A DNA stretch of 22,255 bases from the IMG/VR virus record IMGVR_UViG_3300030419_005190, positions 1 to 22,255 of that record. The stretch is one strand, 5' to 3'. This document shows positions 1,420 through 13,278 of this stretch, piece after piece. Position numbers and translations under genes: made by a program. Within the stretch, counting starts at the first letter, position 1, and each line of letters opens with the position of its first letter. The notes beneath the pieces were generated by a model, which worked only from the letters and a program-made list of their open reading frames with translations, did not search any database and was not told the DNA's origin. The DNA is from a virus.

Positions 1420-4400
1420 TCAACTCCTACCGATCTTGGGCACGAAATATTGGCCGGGTTTTTTCTTTTTCTTTTTCTTTTTCTTGTTTGTAAATTGCTT
1501 ATTCGCGGTGTCGGAAACAATCTTCGCGGCGGAGCCTGTGCGGTCTGTTCCCCTAGGGTCTATCGCCTCTAAAGCAGTGTTGTCAGGATCGGCTGTTGAA
1601 GCCCGCTCAATGCTTGGTGCCCGGCTGTGGCGGAAGTTTGTTGGAAAGTTTTCCCACAATGTTTTCAGCGTTGTTTGGAAGCCGGCGCTATCAATCGAAC
1701 ATTGCACCTCAATAATCAAATAGTATCCACCAAGCCTAAGAATTCTCTGGTTCTTTTCAAAAGATTCTTTTGTCATTTGACCAAACCCCATCATCGATGG
1801 GTCTATAAATATATATTGTCCATTCTGGAACAGTGGATTTCCTATCATTTCAATGTCACAATTATATTTTGACCCTCGGAGACCCTCTATATCACTTCTT
1901 TGGTTTCTGTCGACAACAGAGGCTTCTGCTGCATACTTTCTAGTTTCACCCTTGAAATTGAATTTTTTGGCCAAGCCTCGATCTGCTCCGACACGAAGAT
2001 GATATATTCCATTACTAGAGTCCTCTTTGGCATCGCCACTTAATCTATTAATTTTCTGACTATTAGCATATAATAAGGTATAATTAAAAATGTTGGTGGG
2101 GACTGTTCCGGGCTGGACTTGCAGGCCTGTAATTTTTTCGCCGTCTGGTCTAGAGTGACTACCTTGAACCACACTTGCGGCCAGGCCTGTGTTCCCGCCG
2201 GCCACATATAACCTTCCATGTTTATTTCCCAACTTACCAGAAAGCCTATCGCTACCGTCTGCTGCAGCAGGAGCGTTAAATGTTGATGTTTTTACAGATA
2301 AAATATTTTGTGAACTTTCTCCAGGCTCGTTACCATAACAAGTTGTTCCAAACATTGGATTAATAATGTAAGATATTATGTCTTTTATAAAATCATGCGC
2401 GCTCATAGTAACAATATCTCTTTTAATTATTCTATTCATATACCATATCATAAAATAATGCCAAGATACTGGTACATCTGATAAATTTAATTGAACCTTT
2501 TTTTGTGTGTGTCTATCAAAAAAGTAAAAGTCACCTATTAATATCCTTTGGCGCAATTGGTCTGGGTGGTTCGAAAAATTCTTCAGGGCAATATCTATTA
2601 TATCTCCAAAATACATAAATTCGAACTGCACAAAGGTTCTTTCGCTTCCATCGATATTTAATGTAAGCTTGTTATTAGCCGGATCTAGGCTTCGGACCCA
2701 TTTAGCCAAAGCTTTATCTCGTTTTTCGACTTGTGCTTTTCCTTCTCCCGAGTCTTCAATATCATAATTCTTCTTATCTTTTTCCAAGTTTCTACGGTCA
2801 TTGTCTAGTTTTCGGTCTGCGGCCACTGAGGAGCTGCCTCGATGGCCGCGGCTGTTCTCGGAACGGGTCCGCCAAAATTCATCTACTTCTTTGGATTGGT
2901 CCAGCTGCATCACGGGATGGCCCCGGTTAAAAGCGCTAGTGCGCGCGGCATCGTAGATACGTCTTTCCGTTGGCGTTAGTTTGCTGACGTCTCTATTTTC
3001 AATCCAAGATTCATCCTGTTTTTCAAATTGGAATGGTCTTCTATTCACCATGTCTTCAATTACGCTTTCGTCGGTCAGGCCGGCTTCTCTCAAAATGCTA
3101 GCTAGCTCTGCTTTACCTGCAGGGCCCTTGGAGGCCAAATCGCTTCTTAAGCGGCGGAACCTAGCCATCTGGGTGGCTTTTAGTTGTTTTCCGTTCCATA
3201 AACCAATTTCTTCTATAGGTATAACAGCTGCCTTTAGCCTGTTGGATATGATGAGATTGTCGATAAATATTCGCTGCGATTCCCGGCGCTGCGCGTGCTC
3301 ATCTAAAAGCTTAACATTCTCATACGTATTAATTATGCCCTGCAGTCGGTCGGTGCTTACTTCCGAAAACCTTTCGTTCAATTCTGCATCTTTAGAACTT
3401 GCTCCCGCGGGATTACCCTGTGTTCCTTCTTCTTTCTCTTTCTTTTCTCTTCTTCGGCGCTTTAATTCGGCGCGGGCTTCGGTGGGCGTGACACGGATGT
3501 TATTTTTACTATTGTATTCGCTGTCGGCACGAATGCGGCCGGCCGTATCTGCGAACGCGGCGTTAAGGGGTGTAAACACGTTAGATGCAGAGTCTTGCAG
3601 GGCGTTTTCTAGGGCCCCAACAAAATCAACAGTTACCCTTATCGACCCATCTTGATTAAATTCTATATCATGCTCTGTCAGCGTTAGGTACAAGACCACT
3701 TTGCAATTTTTAATAGCATCTAGCATACCATCATTCATCAACTTTTTATCCTTAACTGATGTTGGCAAGCTCCATCCGACCACCGCTTTAAGCCTCCACA
3801 GGCCTTCGGTATCGTTGTCCCTTAATTTCTCGCGATCTTCATCATATATCTTTGCTTCATACGGATTTATAATATCTGAAAATCTATATTGTAATGCTTT
3901 TCCATCTAATTTTTCATTTGCCATTCTTGTGGCTGTGAAATCTTCAAGATTTTGAAAAAACATTGTTAGTTTACACTTAGTGCTGTATTTGACCTGGGCG
4001 GGATCTTTTCCGTCATATATCCATTCGAAGGATTGTATTCCGACTCCATGGCCGCGGCCAAACTTCGAACTAGTAATTTTAGAAATATCTTCTTGTGATA
4101 TTGCCTCGCTTGGAAAATGTAATTCGACGTCCTTATATTCACTTGGCGATTCACCGGGTTTCGAGATAAGATATGATTTAAATATTCTTATTTTTGGCAC
4201 TAACAAAGCCTTCTGGTCTGGGGTCATATCAAATAATATTTGAGTGCCAGGCTTCCCAGTCAACATGGATACTAAAACTTCTGGAGATCCTCCGTGGATT
4301 GGTGTGAAGTTATTGAAGTGTTCTTTGCCACCACTAGTGTCTCTACCAAATCTAGAAAATCCAGAATATGTCCTCCAATTATCTATTAAATAACACTGTT

Positions 4401-5667: not shown

Positions 5668-8133
5668 TTACTTCGGAATAACATTTGTTTTCTGCTCCAT
5701 CTTTTCGTATACTGCTCGACCAAATTCTCTATCATTAAGTTTCATGATAATTGTTTTACCTCCGGCATCATCAGCAGGAGTACCAGACGCTAAGCCAGTT
5801 TCTTGAATTGCTGCCACGAACGCCGCTTTGATTTGGTCAATGGTGACTCCTCCACTTGGCCCGGAAGCAACATCTGAAGCGGCCCCCATGACTTTTTGCA
5901 CGTTCTCATTTGTTATCACATTTGAGCCCTGGCCCATTGTTATCATTTCTGGGCCTCTTTCACCAACAATGGCGGTACCTCCCTGGAAGTTTGTTACGCC
6001 CTTTTCAAAGCCCGGCAAATCATCAATCGTTGGTACCGGAATTGTAGGGATGTTGACACGAGGAATTTTGTTCATTCCCTTAATTACCAGATTCATCAGG
6101 TTAATAGGTAAAGTGACTATGAATATTGCAGCCTTAACCAGTGCTCGGAGCATCCCTATAATAAATGATTTAAACCCGCTTAATACTGACGTAAACATAC
6201 CAGATATATTATTAGCAAGAAAGCCAATTAATTTGTAGAAGCCGTAAAATGCCGCTATTGCGGCAGCGATGGCAACAACTATTGCCAAAAGGGGCAAGAG
6301 CGCAGCATTTTGGGCTATCGAATATATTCCCCAAGCTGCACCGACAACGAGAAGTGCTTTTCCTAGTGTTGGAGAAAGCGATGAAAGCAGAACAAACGCC
6401 AACATAAATGCTTGTAAAGGACTTGTTGCGGCGAGGGTCGCGATTTTAAATATCACAAATGCTGCGGCAATTCCTAAAATAGCAGTAGTTAATACATCAT
6501 TCCAAGATAAAATTCCTGTAAAAATACTGAAAATATGAGAAATGACGTCGAGAACATTTCCGAGGGCCTTGAAAACTGGTGTTAAAGAAATGGCCAGGCT
6601 TTGGAACATTATTTTTAATTTGTCGCCAAGAGTTTGCAGTTCTTTGACCGCTTCATTAAAGTCTTTTTGTTTTTCATCAGCTTCGGCAGCCTTTTCCATC
6701 TGCTCATCATAAGAAGAAAGAGATTGTCCAAATATTTTATTTGCTTCAGCCATATCATCAATTCCAGCCGCGTTGGCTATGGCCATTTTCTCATACTTAC
6801 CCATATCTTTCCAAGATTTATTAGAAGCTTCCATTGCTTCAAGCATTGCCCTGGTTCTCTGTTCTTCGTTCATTCTAACCATCTGAATAGAATTTAAGTA
6901 GGGTCCGCCGAGGACTGCATTTAAATTCCCTACTGCATTGGCGGCGCCTTCGAACGTATCAAACTGCTCCATAATATTAAGAAGAGTTGTTGTCTCCATA
7001 TTTAATGCTTTCGCGGATGCTGAGACCTTTTTAAACACCGATATCATTCCGGAGCCATATGCGGCTAGCCTTTTTGAAGCTACATTGAATTCTTCTGCCA
7101 TCTGTTGTGGGGGGATCCCCATTTCCATTGCTAAGCTTAAGACATCCCCTATTGCGGCTTCAGCTTCTTCAGAAGACATTCTAAAGGCGCCGACCAGAGT
7201 ATCATAACTTTCTGAAACGGCCGCATTTTGGATTCCTAATTTCTGCATTGTTGCTGTAAATTCGACCATATTTTTCTGGGCGCCGGCGTTTTGCTTACTA
7301 AAGGCGGCGACCGTAGAATTGAGAGACACAAGAGATTCTGCATATTCTTGTGTGCTGACGCCTAATTGGCGCATGCTGTTTCCGGCCAAACTAAAACTAT
7401 AAGTCATGTCAGTGATCATTTTATCGTAGCGCCTACCTTGCCCGGTGGCTCTACCAACTGCCGCTGTTTGTTCGTCTAGTGCCATTGCTGTGGCTATAGA
7501 ACTTTCTATCATTTTTTCGATAGTCGATCCAAGCATATTCGCGGTCGTGAACGTTTCATTGAAAGCGTTTTCCATTCCCATTAATGCTTCACTAAAACTA
7601 TCTGCATCGTCCATAGTGGTTGCTAGGGCGCCCCATGTGGTATCTCTCCAGGCTTCGCTGACCCCGGTCATTGCTTCCAGAGTTTTTTTGGTGCCCTGTT
7701 CTGCTGCAAGCACAGCTTTGGCGCGTTTTTTCTGTATCTTGAGATCTTCTTTCTTGACCTCAATTTGCTTATATAGGTTTTTTAACTTTTCTTGCGATGT
7801 TTTGAGATCTTCTTTTGCAAGTGCTATTTTTTCTTCATCACCGATAATCAAAGCCTGCTGGTAAGCCGTTTGTTTATCCACTTCAGCGTTAATTGCCTCT
7901 TGAATTCCTCTAGACTTTTGCATATTTGCAATTTTGGCTTCGAAAAATCTAATTTCGTTTTCTCTTATGCCGGCAGCCAGTTCCACTTTATTAGAAAGTT
8001 CTGTGGCGTGCTTAAGTTCCTCTTTCATGAGGGCGTTGGATTTTTCCAGACTGGCAAGGCGCCTTTCAGCGGCTTCAGCGATTGCTTGTTGCTTTGCTAA
8101 TTGTTCTTCTGGTGTGAGTTTATCGTCTGCCAT
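5668..8133 (-). CDS. Tail tape measure protein (821 aa)
   Basis: The tape measure runs through the tube lumen, sets tail length and is ejected ahead of the DNA. The layout is classic. A charged coiled coil fills about residues 1-155 and is followed by a helical middle rich in Ala, Met and Ser. A long hydrophobic region of several membrane-like helices spans about residues 515-690. Then comes the typical tape-measure C-terminal motif FEKGVTNFQGGTAIVGERGP, near residue 705. Using the usual rule of about 1.5 angstrom per residue, 821 residues predict a tail near 120 nm, an estimate only. The functional counterpart in T4 is gp29 (590 aa). AGAGGA lies eight bases before the ATG, and the gene starts 11 bases after the previous stop. 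The large size and GERGPE motif make the call firm. Confidence 0.92.
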   Translation of the reverse strand: MADDKLTPEEQLAKQQAIAEAAERRLASLEKSNALMKEELKHATELSNKVELAAGIRENEIRFFEAKIANMQKSRGIQEAINAEVDKQTAYQQALIIGDEEKIALAKEDLKTSQEKLKNLYKQIEVKKEDLKIQKKRAKAVLAAEQGTKKTLEAMTGVSEAWRDTTWGALATTMDDADSFSEALMGMENAFNETFTTANMLGSTIEKMIESSIATAMALDEQTAAVGRATGQGRRYDKMITDMTYSFSLAGNSMRQLGVSTQEYAESLVSLNSTVAAFSKQNAGAQKNMVEFTATMQKLGIQNAAVSESYDTLVGAFRMSSEEAEAAIGDVLSLAMEMGIPPQQMAEEFNVASKRLAAYGSGMISVFKKVSASAKALNMETTTLLNIMEQFDTFEGAANAVGNLNAVLGGPYLNSIQMVRMNEEQRTRAMLEAMEASNKSWKDMGKYEKMAIANAAGIDDMAEANKIFGQSLSSYDEQMEKAAEADEKQKDFNEAVKELQTLGDKLKIMFQSLAISLTPVFKALGNVLDVISHIFSIFTGILSWNDVLTTAILGIAAAFVIFKIATLAATSPLQAFMLAFVLLSSLSPTLGKALLVVGAAWGIYSIAQNAALLPLLAIVVAIAAAIAAFYGFYKLIGFLANNISGMFTSVLSGFKSFIIGMLRALVKAAIFIVTLPINLMNLVIKGMNKIPRVNIPTIPVPTIDDLPGFEKGVTNFQGGTAIVGERGPEMITMGQGSNVITNENVQKVMGAASDVASGPSGGVTIDQIKAAFVAAIQETGLASGTPADDAGGKTIIMKLNDREFGRAVYEKMEQKTNVIPK

Positions 8134-8144
8134 TTCCTAGTCCT

Positions 8145-8504
8145 CTATGACTTAAACGGCCATATCAATCCCGTTGTTTTTTCAAAGTCTTTAATAGCTC
8201 TATCCAACTTTATTTTAGATTTATAGGTTCTAGGATCATCCAATCCAAATTTTTTGGCGGAAACCATAAATTGTTTTTCGTTTCCTAAAGCTTTAGCATA
8301 AGAGGCTATTTCCGATTTTGTGCCTCGAACTTGAAAATTCGGCAGAGGACCTGGACCAATATTATATGTCCCAAACATCTTTCCAAGAATCATCTTAGTC
8401 AACCCTCCGAACATCCTCAACCAACTTTCGGTTAAGAGACCGTTTCGAGCCGCGCCTAAATCGACGATTTGTTCAGAAAGCTCATCTTCATGAAGATTTT
8501 CCAC
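8145..8504 (-). CDS. Unknown small tail protein (119 aa)
   Basis: I choose the GTG at 8504 because GGAGG lies eight bases upstream. A TTG seven codons further up would place the binding site inside the gene. The protein begins MENLHEDELSEQIVDLGAAR, has a short Met/Leu-rich helix with glycines (LRMFGGLTKMILGKMFG), and ends in a basic helical region (RGTKSEIASYAKALGNEK, then FEKTTGLIWPFKS). I do not recognise a named family. It is the first gene after a terminator and an ACTATTTA element and lies immediately before the tape measure, so a role in tape-measure handling or hub assembly is plausible, by position only. Confidence 0.75.
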   Translation of the reverse strand: MENLHEDELSEQIVDLGAARNGLLTESWLRMFGGLTKMILGKMFGTYNIGPGPLPNFQVRGTKSEIASYAKALGNEKQFMVSAKKFGLDDPRTYKSKIKLDRAIKDFEKTTGLIWPFKS

Positions 8505-8535
8505 TATAATTTCCTCCAGACACAATTATCTCTTA

Positions 8536-8553: not shown

Positions 8554-8580
8554 AAAAAAAAAGACTGCTTTCGCAGTCTT
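8554..8580 (-). terminator. Strong intrinsic terminator after the chaperone genes
   Basis: The coding strand forms a perfect eight-base stem, AAGACTGC with GCAGTCTT, closed by a GAAA tetraloop and followed by a run of nine T. The stem overlaps the TAA stop of the 61-residue frame. This is a textbook factor-independent terminator for leftward transcription. Confidence 0.93.
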
Positions 8581-8764
8581 ATCTCTTTCTTCCAGTCTTT
8601 GAAGTTTTTGAGGCCTTCTTCATTTCTTCAGACTCTTTCTTAAGTTGATCTGCCAACTTGGTGACAAACCATCTTCTTAAACCTACAGGCAGACTATATG
8701 CCTCTATAAAGCTCCATCCTCCATAATATTTTAGAAAGAAGAACTCTTCATAAACGCTCTCCAT
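8579..8764 (-). CDS. Small tail-assembly chaperone-like frame (61 aa), possibly the C-part of a frameshift fusion
   Basis: The 61-residue product begins MESVYEEFFFLKYYGGWSFI, continues SLPVGLRRWFVTKLADQL and ends in a Lys/Ser-rich tail. A short 'LKY-GGW-SLPVxLRRWF' protein between the tube and tape-measure genes matches the downstream part of two-frame tail-assembly chaperones; T4 gp51 occupies a comparable functional place but is larger (249 aa). The ATG follows the gp26-like stop by seven bases. I see no ribosome-binding site. Its frame is open upstream across a run of seven T inside the previous gene, so it may be made as a frameshift extension instead of, or as well as, a separate protein. 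The terminator overlaps its stop. Confidence 0.75.
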   Translation of the reverse strand: MESVYEEFFFLKYYGGWSFIEAYSLPVGLRRWFVTKLADQLKKESEEMKKASKTSKTGRKR

Positions 8765-8771
8765 GTACTTA

Positions 8772-9632
8772 TCACTTAGGCCAAAAAAACTCCGCTGTCA
8801 GCGGAACCTCCATTGTTGTCTCTGTAAGACATTCCTCGCAAAAGAACTTCTGGGTTAAATCAACATTTGGAACTGATTTACCATAAACTGTTCGAAGATG
8901 TCTTGAATCTGTAGCAGGCATATTATCAACAAATTTAGAAATTGTATTTCTATCTGTATGCCCATTAACAGATTCAATAAACATTTTGAACTGTGAAGTT
9001 AGATTATTCTCTCCCATCCCGTGTTTAGATTTTGATTGCTGCATTTTTACCAAGGCGGCTTCGTCTCTACCCGTCAACATTTTAGCCTCGACCACAACAT
9101 TAGACTTCGGCAGGGTGATTAATAAAGTGCCGTTATCTGTTAATTCTGCGCCATGGGCGGCACATTTATCTGGACCATTAATTTCTGCTAATGCCAAATT
9201 AAACTCATGTCTAGATGTGTTTGCGCAAACTGGACACGTAACGCTCGTTTCGTACTCTGATCCATATCCCGTCTGTCTAGCAGCAATAATAATTGCGTTT
9301 TTATCTCCAACCAAAAGCTGGTCTGGTTTGATTGCCTTGTCCGTCATAACATTTTGCAACAAACGATCAATTGCCAGACCCTTCTTCAAAAGAGATTTAG
9401 ATGTTAAGATATCTTCATCTTTAGCTGTCATATGGCGAATTTCGACAGTTTCTTTGTTGTGCAGTGGGTGCCCTTCTGGATAAAATCTTCCTTGGGAAGG
9501 CAATTCTACGAACTCAACTGGCGTTGCAAAATCTAACGTACCAGGAGTTGTTGTTTCTGTTGCGTCGATTGGGGGAGCATCAGCGGCTGGCTGGTTCGTT
9601 CCAATTCGATCTTCGTTATTTCGTGTAGACAC
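8772..9632 (-). CDS. gp26-like baseplate hub-assembly protein with zinc-ribbon cysteines (286 aa)
   Basis: Residues 40-125 contain the signature of the T4 gp26-like 'T4 baseplate' family: VELPSQGRFYPEGHPL, TVEIRHMTAKDEDILTSKSL, VGDKNAIIIAARQTGYG. Two CxxC pairs, C133/C136 (CPVC) and C265/C268 (CEEC), suggest a zinc ribbon. Members of this family act in assembly of the central baseplate hub and, judging by gene position between tube and tape measure, probably as tail-assembly chaperones. The start is GTG with GAGG six bases upstream. The first 33 residues are polar and probably disordered. Near the 3' end lies TTTTTTTGG, a candidate slippery site. T4 gp26 is shorter (208 aa). Confidence 0.85.
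   Translation of the reverse strand: MSTRNNEDRIGTNQPAADAPPIDATETTTPGTLDFATPVEFVELPSQGRFYPEGHPLHNKETVEIRHMTAKDEDILTSKSLLKKGLAIDRLLQNVMTDKAIKPDQLLVGDKNAIIIAARQTGYGSEYETSVTCPVCANTSRHEFNLALAEINGPDKCAAHGAELTDNGTLLITLPKSNVVVEAKMLTGRDEAALVKMQQSKSKHGMGENNLTSQFKMFIESVNGHTDRNTISKFVDNMPATDSRHLRTVYGKSVPNVDLTQKFFCEECLTETTMEVPLTAEFFWPK
8783..8789 (-). other. Seven-T run, candidate ribosomal frameshift site
   Basis: The zero-frame codons are GAG TTT TTT TGG CCT AAG TGA. The frame of the following 61-residue gene is open from a TGA four codons before the T run, through the run, to its ATG, with no stop. A +1 or -2 shift on the run would fuse the two proteins. The -1 frame reaches TAA almost at once, so only +1 or -2 would work. 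Confidence 0.5.
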
Positions 9633-9708: not shown

Positions 9709-9751
9709 GAACGTGCTACCCTATTTTGGCCCAGGGCCGAACGTGGTACCC
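9709..9751. repeat. Imperfect 30-base tandem duplication across the tube stop codon
   Basis: On the plus strand GAACGTGCTACCC (9709-9721) and GAACGTGGTACCC (9739-9751) differ at one base and are 30 bases apart, with similar flanks (TTTTGG and CTTTGG). In the tube frame the second segment lies after the TAG stop and reads GSTF then TAG, echoing the GTTF inside the tube protein's end. Confidence 0.7.
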
Positions 9752-10257
9752 GCTTTGGTCATAGCGGCATAATCATATCGAATAGTAATTGAAATTTCTA
9801 CCAGATCCTCGGAACCATAATCAAGAGATCCAAACTCTACGTTTTTGATCCAAGCATTTTCGAGAGTCCACTCTTCAATGACATCTGACGCGCTGCCTCC
9901 AATTTGCTTTAGATACACAGTACCAAGAGCATCGACTGAATCTTTCTTAGTTATAACATCTGACGTGGCCGCGGCGACGTCAATCGGAAGATTGTATCCG
10001 GAGTGTTGCAGGATGGCCATCAACGTCGCTGATGCGTCTGGAGAGGCTGGATCAACCATTGTGACTGTGATCTCGTTCCAAGTTACTCTGCCTGGGTAAT
10101 AGTAAGTGTGATTAAGAAACTGATGCTCTGTTTCCGATACCTCAAAACCTGGTTTATCGGCTGTTTTGATAATATAATCAATTCCCCAGTTAGAGAAGTT
10201 CATTAAGTATTTAAAACTTCTTTTTGGTTCTAATTGTGTGGTGCTCCAAAATGCCAT
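9721..10257 (-). CDS. 19: Tail tube protein (gp19-like, 178 aa)
   Basis: The protein builds the inner tail tube through which DNA passes. Length is close to T4 gp19 (163 aa). The N-terminus PKRSFKYLMNFSNWGIDYII, the central loop HQFLNHTYYYPGRVTWNEIT and the C-terminal strand ISITIRYDYA follow the usual gp19/tube pattern, and it directly follows the sheath gene as in T4. The best ribosome-binding site, AAGGAG, sits 13 bases before the ATG, longer than usual. An exact ACTATTTA element lies 29 bases upstream, giving this highly expressed gene its own probable promoter. A partial duplication of the 3' end follows the stop. Confidence 0.9.
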   Translation of the reverse strand: MAFWSTTQLEPKRSFKYLMNFSNWGIDYIIKTADKPGFEVSETEHQFLNHTYYYPGRVTWNEITVTMVDPASPDASATLMAILQHSGYNLPIDVAAATSDVITKKDSVDALGTVYLKQIGGSASDVIEEWTLENAWIKNVEFGSLDYGSEDLVEISITIRYDYAAMTKAGTTFGPGPK

Positions 10258-10317: not shown

Positions 10318-13278
10318 TTAATCTTCAAATGCTGCCCCGTCATTCGTAATTACGAAGTCTAGTGCGATGAACTCAACTGCTTTCGCTGGCTTGAGCAAGA
10401 TCTTTGCGTACATGATATTTCTATCAACAAGATCCGGGGTTGTTGTCGACTCATCAAGAACAACTCGGAAATCTGTTAATCCAAGTCGAGTTCTGATTGA
10501 TTTTAAGAACGGTTCTGCTTGTCCTCTAAATCTCTCCCATGTAGTGCGTACATTTTGATCGAACAAGAGTGTTGCTGCCATTCTAGAAATCTCTTTCTTT
10601 ACATGAATCATCAGTCGACGAACATTGATTCTATCAAGAGCAGAATCTGTTGCCTGAAGCGTCTTTTGTCCGAAGATAACGATACCCTCTGCAGGGAATG
10701 TTGCAATCGGATTAATATCGGCTTCATAAAGCTTATCTCTGTCTTCAGAAGTAAGTCTCTGGCGAACACCTACGACTGGGATACCTGCGGCGCCGTCTGT
10801 GAGGCCTCCGCGTGTAAATCCTGCAGGAGCAAACCAAAGTTCAGTCTTTCTTTCCGAACTAGCCATTGTGCCAATGGCAGCAATGGAGGGCGGCATCCAA
10901 ATGGTTCTATTTGAAATAGTGTCTCTTGCTTGGACCCATGGATAGAACGCACAACCATAACTTGAATTAAGGCCTCGCGAGAGCATCGAAGATACTGCGC
11001 TATCGACTGTACCAACATTTGATTGGTCTCCGGCCGTATTTTCTACATTTGTGCTGAAGTCATTCTCGATATCAATGATAGCGAGGGCGTCTCCGCGACC
11101 TTCACAAGTATTAATCAAGTGCTCTGTGATTTGAGGTTTAGAAATGCCCGGGACAACTGCAAGATTAAAGTCGACGACCTCGGGGTCCGAACAAGCATCA
11201 ATGCCGCGCTTAACTGTGTAATAGGCATACTCATTAAGCTCATTATCGCCCATTCTTGTGTTGTTGAGCGGGTCTCTTTCTGAAACGTCCCAACCGTCAT
11301 GACCGCCGTCAAGAACGGTTGTGAATCGATTGAAGCCCTCATCGAGAACCTGCTTCCAGCTTGAAGAAAGTGCAGTCAACGAAGTACCAGACCCTCTCGA
11401 ACCGGATATCCATCTTGCGCCACCTGTGCCGGTGTAAGATGCAAGGTCATCAAGTGTAAATGTCCAGGAATATTCTGTGTTTGTTCCTGGTGTAAATTGT
11501 TGCGCGCTCATATGAGAGGGCAATGGACGAAGAACGTCCAAATTACTCTTATCAAACTTTACGCTACCCGATTTTGTTGTGTCTGCTCCAAAATATGCAT
11601 GCTTTGGGTTTGAAACCGGTGGAGTTTGTGTATTTTGGCGTAGCGGTACTGATGGGAAAATAACCGAGCATGTTGTCTGCATCAACGGCTGGAATGCCTG
11701 GGCGATGCTAGCGGCGTTACCCAAGCTGCCGCCGGCGAGCTTGAGATCTTCAGTCCAATCACTGAGCTTGCCCTGATCAGCCCCGGTATGATAGGAACTC
11801 AATGGCAAAATATAAGAATTTGCAACAGTTATTGCAGTGCCAGTTGTATCCGGATCAAATCCCTCATTGAAGCCAGTTGCGGCAGAGCCAGATCTAAACG
11901 AAAGTGTTTTTGGTCTGACTGGGCCATATACTCCGAATGGGAGATATTCAGCGTTTGTTGCGCCTGCATCGACGTCTGCGTTCATTTCTACACGAAGAAA
12001 TTTAGACAGATTTGGATAATTTCCATATTCCTTATGTCTCTTCTCGCTATCATCCCAAGTTACATATCTGTCACCTATCTTTTTAGCGACATAATCTGGT
12101 GAATTAGGATTGAGGTTACAGGAACTGAATCTTTCTACGACCTGAACCTTGTTATCGTTGTCGGACATTCTTCTAACAACCACGGTGAACTTGCCATATG
12201 GATCATCCAAACTAGTTGCCGCTTTAATGTCCTGAATCGATACCTTGAGATTTTGAGATGTCCATGCTCCGCCGTCCAAAGAGATTAAGCGGAACAATTG
12301 TTGTGTATGATCGGAATAGTGGAAGCCGCCATCAGGGGCACCACCACCAGTATTTCGAAGGTCTTGTGAGAAGAACCAGCCAGTTTGCGCAGCATTCATT
12401 CCCTGTTGGTGAATGCCGGCATGAGTAGCAGCGGATAAACCAAGACCAACAATACAACCCCAGGATCCACCTGAGTTTGTAGCTGATGTGTTGTTTGCAT
12501 CAACATTATCAACGACTGCTCTATCAAAAGTTTCACCAAGCCAGTATACTTCCTGCTGCGCAGTAGCTGTGCAGCCAGAGTTAGTCAATGTCGGATTTGT
12601 ATTAAACACTTTTCTGATATATTTCTGGGATGTGTTGTTTAAATTGAAGTTAATAGTTGTCGTAGTATCATCCGCCTTATTAATAATAGCTTTAAATTCG
12701 TGATTGGCGCCTTGGGACTCAATCAAAAGGCCGGCTCCCTGAGCGGTGAGCGAAGACGATGCAGCTGCTGTTCCAGAAAGATGGATAGAGCCTTCATTCA
12801 GATACCAAATTGCAGCAAGAGTTCCTGTTGTTGGTGTTGTAACAGAAGATGCGGATCCCCATAAAAGAAGTCCGTAAGCACCACCTGCACTAGCCGATGC
12901 GTTGGACGGTGTATTTGTTGTTTTCCAGCCTGCTTCACCGCCAGTGAGGGCGTCAGTATGTTGATTTCCCAAAAGACGAACTACGTTAATTGGGCCGGAG
13001 TTTTTAAGCCAGGCTTGGGCGGCATATGGGGCATATGTTGCGGAAGTTTTGTTTCCGTCTCTCCAGACGTCGCCGCCGTCGCCACCTGGGATTGGATTTC
13101 CAAAAATCTCTACGAATTCAGAAAAAGACTGAACCTTTACTGGCCTCATTGCTGGGCCTCTCTCTGTGCGTCCAATTACCAGTGGGCCGATTGCCTCTGC
13201 TGTACTTGGAACCTGTGAATTATCGATTTCATCAATGAAAACACCTGGGGACACAAACTTGAACTTATCAACTGACAT
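10318..13278 (-). CDS. 18: Contractile tail sheath protein (gp18-like, 986 aa)
   Basis: The sheath contracts around the tube to drive it through the host envelope. The N-terminus KFVSPGVFIDEIDNSQVP, followed by GPLVIGRTERGPAMRPVKV and an FxEFVEIFG segment, is the classic sheath N-terminal arm and handshake region. The C-terminal 290 residues (from about 690: DFNLAVVPGI, then VRRLMIHVKKEISRMAATLL, TWERFRGQAEPFL, AKILLKPAKAVEFI) form the conserved core. It is about 330 residues longer than T4 gp18 (659 aa). The extra material lies mainly in residues about 110-470, a Gly/Thr/Ser/Ala-rich beta region with YWLGETFDRAVV, probably on the outer surface. AGGAG lies ten bases before the ATG, with an ACTATTTA element further upstream. 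Confidence 0.95.
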   Translation of the reverse strand: MSVDKFKFVSPGVFIDEIDNSQVPSTAEAIGPLVIGRTERGPAMRPVKVQSFSEFVEIFGNPIPGGDGGDVWRDGNKTSATYAPYAAQAWLKNSGPINVVRLLGNQHTDALTGGEAGWKTTNTPSNASASAGGAYGLLLWGSASSVTTPTTGTLAAIWYLNEGSIHLSGTAAASSSLTAQGAGLLIESQGANHEFKAIINKADDTTTTINFNLNNTSQKYIRKVFNTNPTLTNSGCTATAQQEVYWLGETFDRAVVDNVDANNTSATNSGGSWGCIVGLGLSAATHAGIHQQGMNAAQTGWFFSQDLRNTGGGAPDGGFHYSDHTQQLFRLISLDGGAWTSQNLKVSIQDIKAATSLDDPYGKFTVVVRRMSDNDNKVQVVERFSSCNLNPNSPDYVAKKIGDRYVTWDDSEKRHKEYGNYPNLSKFLRVEMNADVDAGATNAEYLPFGVYGPVRPKTLSFRSGSAATGFNEGFDPDTTGTAITVANSYILPLSSYHTGADQGKLSDWTEDLKLAGGSLGNAASIAQAFQPLMQTTCSVIFPSVPLRQNTQTPPVSNPKHAYFGADTTKSGSVKFDKSNLDVLRPLPSHMSAQQFTPGTNTEYSWTFTLDDLASYTGTGGARWISGSRGSGTSLTALSSSWKQVLDEGFNRFTTVLDGGHDGWDVSERDPLNNTRMGDNELNEYAYYTVKRGIDACSDPEVVDFNLAVVPGISKPQITEHLINTCEGRGDALAIIDIENDFSTNVENTAGDQSNVGTVDSAVSSMLSRGLNSSYGCAFYPWVQARDTISNRTIWMPPSIAAIGTMASSERKTELWFAPAGFTRGGLTDGAAGIPVVGVRQRLTSEDRDKLYEADINPIATFPAEGIVIFGQKTLQATDSALDRINVRRLMIHVKKEISRMAATLLFDQNVRTTWERFRGQAEPFLKSIRTRLGLTDFRVVLDESTTTPDLVDRNIMYAKILLKPAKAVEFIALDFVITNDGAAFED

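Follow-up and report, generated by a model that had tools for sequence, protein, structure and literature searches.

A gp26-like tail assembly chaperone gene with a probable +1 frameshift at a run of T

We analysed a 22,255-nucleotide stretch of DNA from a marine T4-like phage (the window) and searched its relatives for a frameshift at the end of a gp26-like gene. The locus very probably specifies two forms of a tail assembly chaperone, one short and one long, the latter arising by a +1 slip at a run of T; this is the best explanation of the sequences compared. The original prediction, that a frameshift joins the gp26-like gene to a 61-residue frame, is thus supported at the level of sequence.

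The junction and its neighbourhood

All features described in the window lie on its minus strand. The gp26-like gene (8772-9632) encodes the zero-frame short product, a protein of 286 aa ending in TAEFFWPK before the stop codon. This protein belongs to PF12322 (T4_baseplate; E=1.9e-14), as attested by a score of 54.3 bits against a curated cut-off of 24.5 and by a match spanning profile positions 12-219 of 219, and it also matches PHROG 150 (baseplate hub) with E=6e-16. The 3' end of the gene reads GAG TTT TTT TGG CCT AAG TGA, the stop codon lying at 8772-8774, and the T run already noted was confirmed near this end, at 8783-8789. It overlaps the putative slip site TTT TTT TGG (8781-8789), of which the two Phe codons, together with TGGCCT, are kept across the clade. 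A GGAGG at 8807-8811, 17 nt upstream of the run, is anti-Shine-Dalgarno-like and constitutes a candidate pausing element.

As had been anticipated, the 61-residue frame is open upstream through the run. Read backward, the +1 frame meets its nearest stop only 3-4 codons upstream of the run. The ORF of 61 aa with an ATG start (8579-8764, +1 frame) is the portion visible to a gene caller of a longer extension, open in the +1 frame (FGLSDKYMESVYEEFFFLKYYGGWSFIEAYSLPVGLRRWF... and its stop, 8579-8785), that would form the C-terminal domain of the long product. A one-base forward step in translation fuses both frames into an uninterrupted protein of 350 residues. A Shine-Dalgarno sequence was sought just 5' of the ATG at 8762-8764 and none was found, in agreement with the prediction that the 61-residue frame has no visible ribosome-binding site.

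The upstream neighbour encodes a gp19-like tail tube protein (9721-10257; phrog_4542, E=9e-28), and a putative tape measure protein of 821 aa, assigned by its length and position, is encoded downstream (5668-8133). The gene order tube, chaperone, tape measure is the same in annotated relatives. The gene had been placed after the tube and before the tape measure gene. The tube gene does lie upstream, but an ORF of 126 aa (8145-8525) separates the extension from the tape measure gene; neither Pfam nor PHROG gave it a match at E<=0.1. With this one extra ORF, the gene occupies the lambda G/GT-type position between tube and tape measure genes. The tail sheath protein of the window (10318-13278) has 986 aa, far above the 71.2 kDa listed for T4 gp18, and its sheath-family matches fall mostly within its C-terminal half.

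In the mechanism that we propose, most ribosomes would translate the gp26-like frame as far as its stop codon, releasing the short form of 286 aa. A minority would slip one base forward on the UUU Phe codon at the T run, the peptidyl-tRNA-Phe shifting from UUU to the overlapping UUU. These ribosomes would continue in the +1 frame and produce the long form of 350 aa, with an extra C-terminal domain predicted to have three helices. By analogy with lambda gpG, the short form probably coats the tape measure protein, while the long form, present in low amount, probably recruits the tail tube or the hub, as gpGT does. We infer that the fusion is made at such a low yield, that the GGAGG may help its production and that the two forms divide their labour in this way.

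Frame, slip codons and context in relatives

A scan of viral contigs for gp26-like relatives gave 80 loci of the window clade, of which 79 were readable across the junction and were analysed together with the window. All 79, like the window, had the same +1 frame leading into a homologous extension. A second +1 clade was found around Flavobacterium phage immuto, and the relation was +1 in 80/80 of the loci read. The site codons of the window clade (n=80) were TTTTTTTGG in 74 cases, TTCTTTTGG in five and TTTCTTTGG in one, and those of the immuto clade (n=80) were TTTTTTTGG (40), TTTCTTTGG (35), TTTCTATGG (4) and TTTCTTTAC (1). Variants breaking the run therefore occurred five (TTCTTTTGG), 36 (TTTCTTTGG) and four (TTTCTATGG) times in the two clades together, and UUU followed by U or C was kept in all three. 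A +1 relation with TTT then T or C was also observed in the annotated distant phages Mel-JY01, SP-15, LIS04, GXN1 and LR756508. Judged from these sequences, the shared slip element is a UUU codon with a +1 neighbour, UUU or UUC, that tRNA-Phe can read. The proposed check was whether relatives conserve both the run and the frame relation against a background of varying flanking codons; the frame is indeed constant and the flanking codons do vary, but a strict run of seven T is not needed.

This result bears on two other sources of the frame offset. Slippage of the RNA polymerase on the T run, instead of the ribosome, could join the frames, and the seven T of the window would suit it; relatives without any run above four, those with the three variants above, nevertheless hold the same frames, and we consider polymerase slippage hardly credible. 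A homopolymer error was also considered as the source of the offset and was rejected, being contradicted by the same run-breaking relatives.

The slip had been predicted as either +1 or -2, as both lead to the same frame in the window, and a -2 frameshift is known for phage Mu. The interrupted runs distinguish between these possibilities. In TTC TTT TGG a -2 shift would bring tRNA-Phe onto UCU, and in TTT CTA TGG it would bring tRNA-Leu onto UUC, both mismatched, whereas at +1 tRNA-Phe re-pairs perfectly from UUU to UUU or UUC in both variants. The +1 shift is therefore favoured, and the -2 part of the prediction appears very improbable.

Whether the shifted frame has coding potential was examined in a non-redundant set of 53 window-clade members, with identities of no more than 90%. 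This frame was open for 59-91 codons in the 53 members and the third frame never reached 40, indicating that the +1 frame is open more than expected by chance. Over the roughly 80 loci in each of the two +1 clades, the third frame was never open and the relative frame was constant.

Alternatively, the 61-aa ORF could be a gene of its own, with coupled re-initiation at the ATG that closely follows the gp26-like stop. Such coupling would be possible in the window, where the ATG lies 7 nt past the zero-frame TGA, and a few distant relatives have a TAATG or TGATG overlap (L094, L180, L183). However, 28/57 distinct extensions of the window clade and 45/56 of the immuto clade have no ATG, GTG or TTG in their first 12 shifted codons. 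With start codons missing in about half of the former and most of the latter, a separate downstream gene cannot account for the family. In addition, a GL..Y motif situated just after the slip, upstream of the window ATG, is conserved at the protein level, its G being invariant and its L and Y almost so, and both the slip codons and the base preceding them are constrained. A separate gene is thus quite unlikely, and we retain the +1 slip. As called on both +1 clades, the two-frame arrangement is of the lambda G/GT type: its layout, its slip codons and the coding potential of its shifted frame are conserved.

As a signature independent of the interrupted runs, the base preceding the two slip codons was compared with the number of T expected from codon usage on non-redundant rows, the rows being related by descent so that counts and probabilities do not represent independent trials: T was found in 0/53 rows of the window clade (30.5 expected), in 0/36 of the immuto clade (16.8 expected) and in 67/67 of a cyanophage clade with a -1 shift (42.8 expected). 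Within each clade, the residue encoded before the site varies among several amino acids. Since T is never present in the +1 clades and always present in the -1 clade, each clade appears to keep the context for its own sign; by this reading, the +1 clades avoid the -1 heptamer T TTT TTC. On the 3' side, CCT follows TGG in 52/53 rows, although CCT makes up only 20% of the Pro codons of these genes, a bias consistent with Leu coding there in the +1 frame.

The GGAGG element is also constrained. Its mean duplex energy was about -9.5 kcal/mol, compared to a background of -0.1 at that position (53 rows), and the Glu codon within it was GAG in 44/44 rows, versus 37% elsewhere in the gene. Rows with a different local protein sequence retained a GGAGG about one codon away. 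Elements of this kind were also found in the other clades, GAGGG or GAAGGG about 10-14 nt 5' of the site in the -1 clade and GGGG about 5-9 nt 5' in the immuto clade. By analogy, these elements could act as pausing elements, which occur upstream of the slip site in other bacterial frameshifts; the spacing of 17 nt in the window is longer than in the well-studied cases. A search for strong downstream RNA structure was negative, the mean energy over 60 nt being just about 2-3 kcal/mol below that of other stretches of the gene.

The extension and the C-terminus of T4 gp51

The extension contains invariant G, Y, P and R residues (76 relatives). Its predicted structure (pLDDT 88.8) consists of helices at residues 5-20, 26-30 and 34-65, a pattern like that of the terminal helices predicted for a gp51 that shares 96% identity with the T4 protein (206-221, 226-231, 234-248). 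By profile comparison, the two +1 clades have matching extensions (98%, E 7.5e-14). That of the window clade also matches its -1 counterpart (73-86%, E 3e-5 to 5e-6), which in turn matches the last 50 residues of T4 gp51 (96-97%, E 7e-9 to 4e-11). None of 100 column-shuffle controls reached any of these three scores. A direct profile match between the window-clade extension and the gp51 C-terminus was not found, the link being made through the cyanophage set. By this chain of profiles and the predicted helix pattern, the long form would consist of the short form followed by a C-terminal domain of the gp51 type. T4 gp26 and gp51 each match PF12322 over its length and are paralogues. Together with the match of the gp51 C-terminus to the cyanophage -1 extension, this bears out the predicted link between the T4 hub-assembly proteins and the tail-chaperone scheme.

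In a viral structure library, the extension aligned with two proteins, the small Gp51 of Prochlorococcus phage P-HM1 and a Klebsiella phage KPV15 protein to which the gp51 model was matched as well; the E-values were weak, as the shortness of the domain would lead one to expect. Among solved structures, none in the PDB matched the gp51 model with an E-value below 1, and none reached Z 5. The 61-aa ORF scored 20.5 bits against DUF6760 (PF20546), below the Pfam cut-off of 27, and 8/58 fusions matched DUF6760 at E<=0.01. A link of DUF6760 to bacterial contractile injection systems was sought in 380 bacterial genomes without any match, a result that is uninformative as control genomes were equally without match, and DUF6760 was not named in the literature searched. 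With the immuto protein as query, the bacterial genomes yielded one contig, which is probably viral.

History of the family and known systems

In all 80 cyanophage-type loci (L195-L274), an invariant T TTT TTC lies one codon before the zero-frame stop and the -1 frame is open into a gp51-like extension. The -1 clade around cyanophage S-RIM8 has TTT TTC with a preceding T in 78/78 distinct proteins. In the cyanophage-type loci, as in other relatives of the T4 superfamily, the -1 relation falls on the two codons equivalent to those of the +1 clades, in the classical heptamer T TTT TTC. Cyanophage gp51 was described as being without about 200 N-terminal residues yet similar to T4 gp51 in its C-terminal part (Sullivan et al. 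2010, PMC3037559), and this N-terminal shortness is explained by the -1 shift. The huge phage LR756511 (L087, about 3700-3770) has a T TTT TTC of the -1 type, with a zero frame about 20 codons longer before the stop. PBECO4, phiM9 and Cygsa01 have stop-start overlaps (TAATG, TGATG) at the junction (L094 3705; L180 3154; L183 2809), and re-initiation may replace or add to frameshifting in these phages.

In a tree of 28 family members, the +1 rows grouped together and the -1 rows occupied several deep branches. T4 gp26 and gp51 were neighbours (86/82) among the -1 lineages, the gp51 branch being very long and its placement uncertain. With all groups considered jointly, at least three label changes were needed. 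The simplest story suggested by these sequences would be an old -1 shift, one switch to +1 and a two-gene solution in the T4 lineage. We somewhat favour a change of sign from -1 on T TTT TTC to +1 on UUU then U or C (a sense codon, with no stop at the site) in one large marine and freshwater lineage, the T4 lineage having passed to two genes and the base before the site guarding each sign.

A 2016 review described wide conservation of the G-T frameshift among long-tailed phages, "except T4" (PMC5009743). T4 gp26 and gp51 are of the same Pfam family as the window gene, PF12322, and the extension is linked to the gp51 C-terminus via the cyanophages; T4, however, has two genes on opposite strands and the window one gene with a +1 shift. 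Vladimirov, Gautam and Davidson reportedly found in 2022 (Virology 566:9-15) that several T4-like groups have kept the frameshift, T4 itself having gene 26 for the short form and gene 51 for the long one. The general interpretation, a two-form T4-like chaperone made by frameshift, is therefore already known, including in other T4-like phages; the new elements may be the +1 sign of the window clade, with its guarding context, and the sequence signals. Lambda gpG/gpGT resembles the window in having a two-form chaperone before the tape measure gene, whose long form is made by a frameshift near the 3' end (PMC5009743), but lambda shifts by -1. The -1 shifts on the UUUUUUC heptamer of SPP1 17.5/17.5* (PMC6316719) and on the invariant GTTTTT motif of Vandenendeviridae chaperones (PMC12846349) likewise resemble our -1 relatives and differ from the +1 of the window. 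In phage 0305phi8-36, gp143/gp144 is a two-gene replacement of the frameshift pair (PMC2147016), without frameshift and thus unlike the window; in its arrangement it parallels T4 gp26/gp51.

These results also call for a correction of annotations: in cultured phages such as immuto, SP-15, S-RIM8 and OLIVR6, small truncated ORFs are found where the C-terminal part of the long chaperone is encoded. The annotated ORFs begin inside the extension (36 aa in immuto and 45 aa in S-RIM8, for example), and in LIS04 and Aeromonas 65.2 the small ORF is missing from the annotation at the junction. Frameshifts in tail chaperones set the ratio of two proteins required for tail assembly. A family that uses +1, -1 or two genes represents a natural experiment, in which a frameshift site changes sign while its function is kept.
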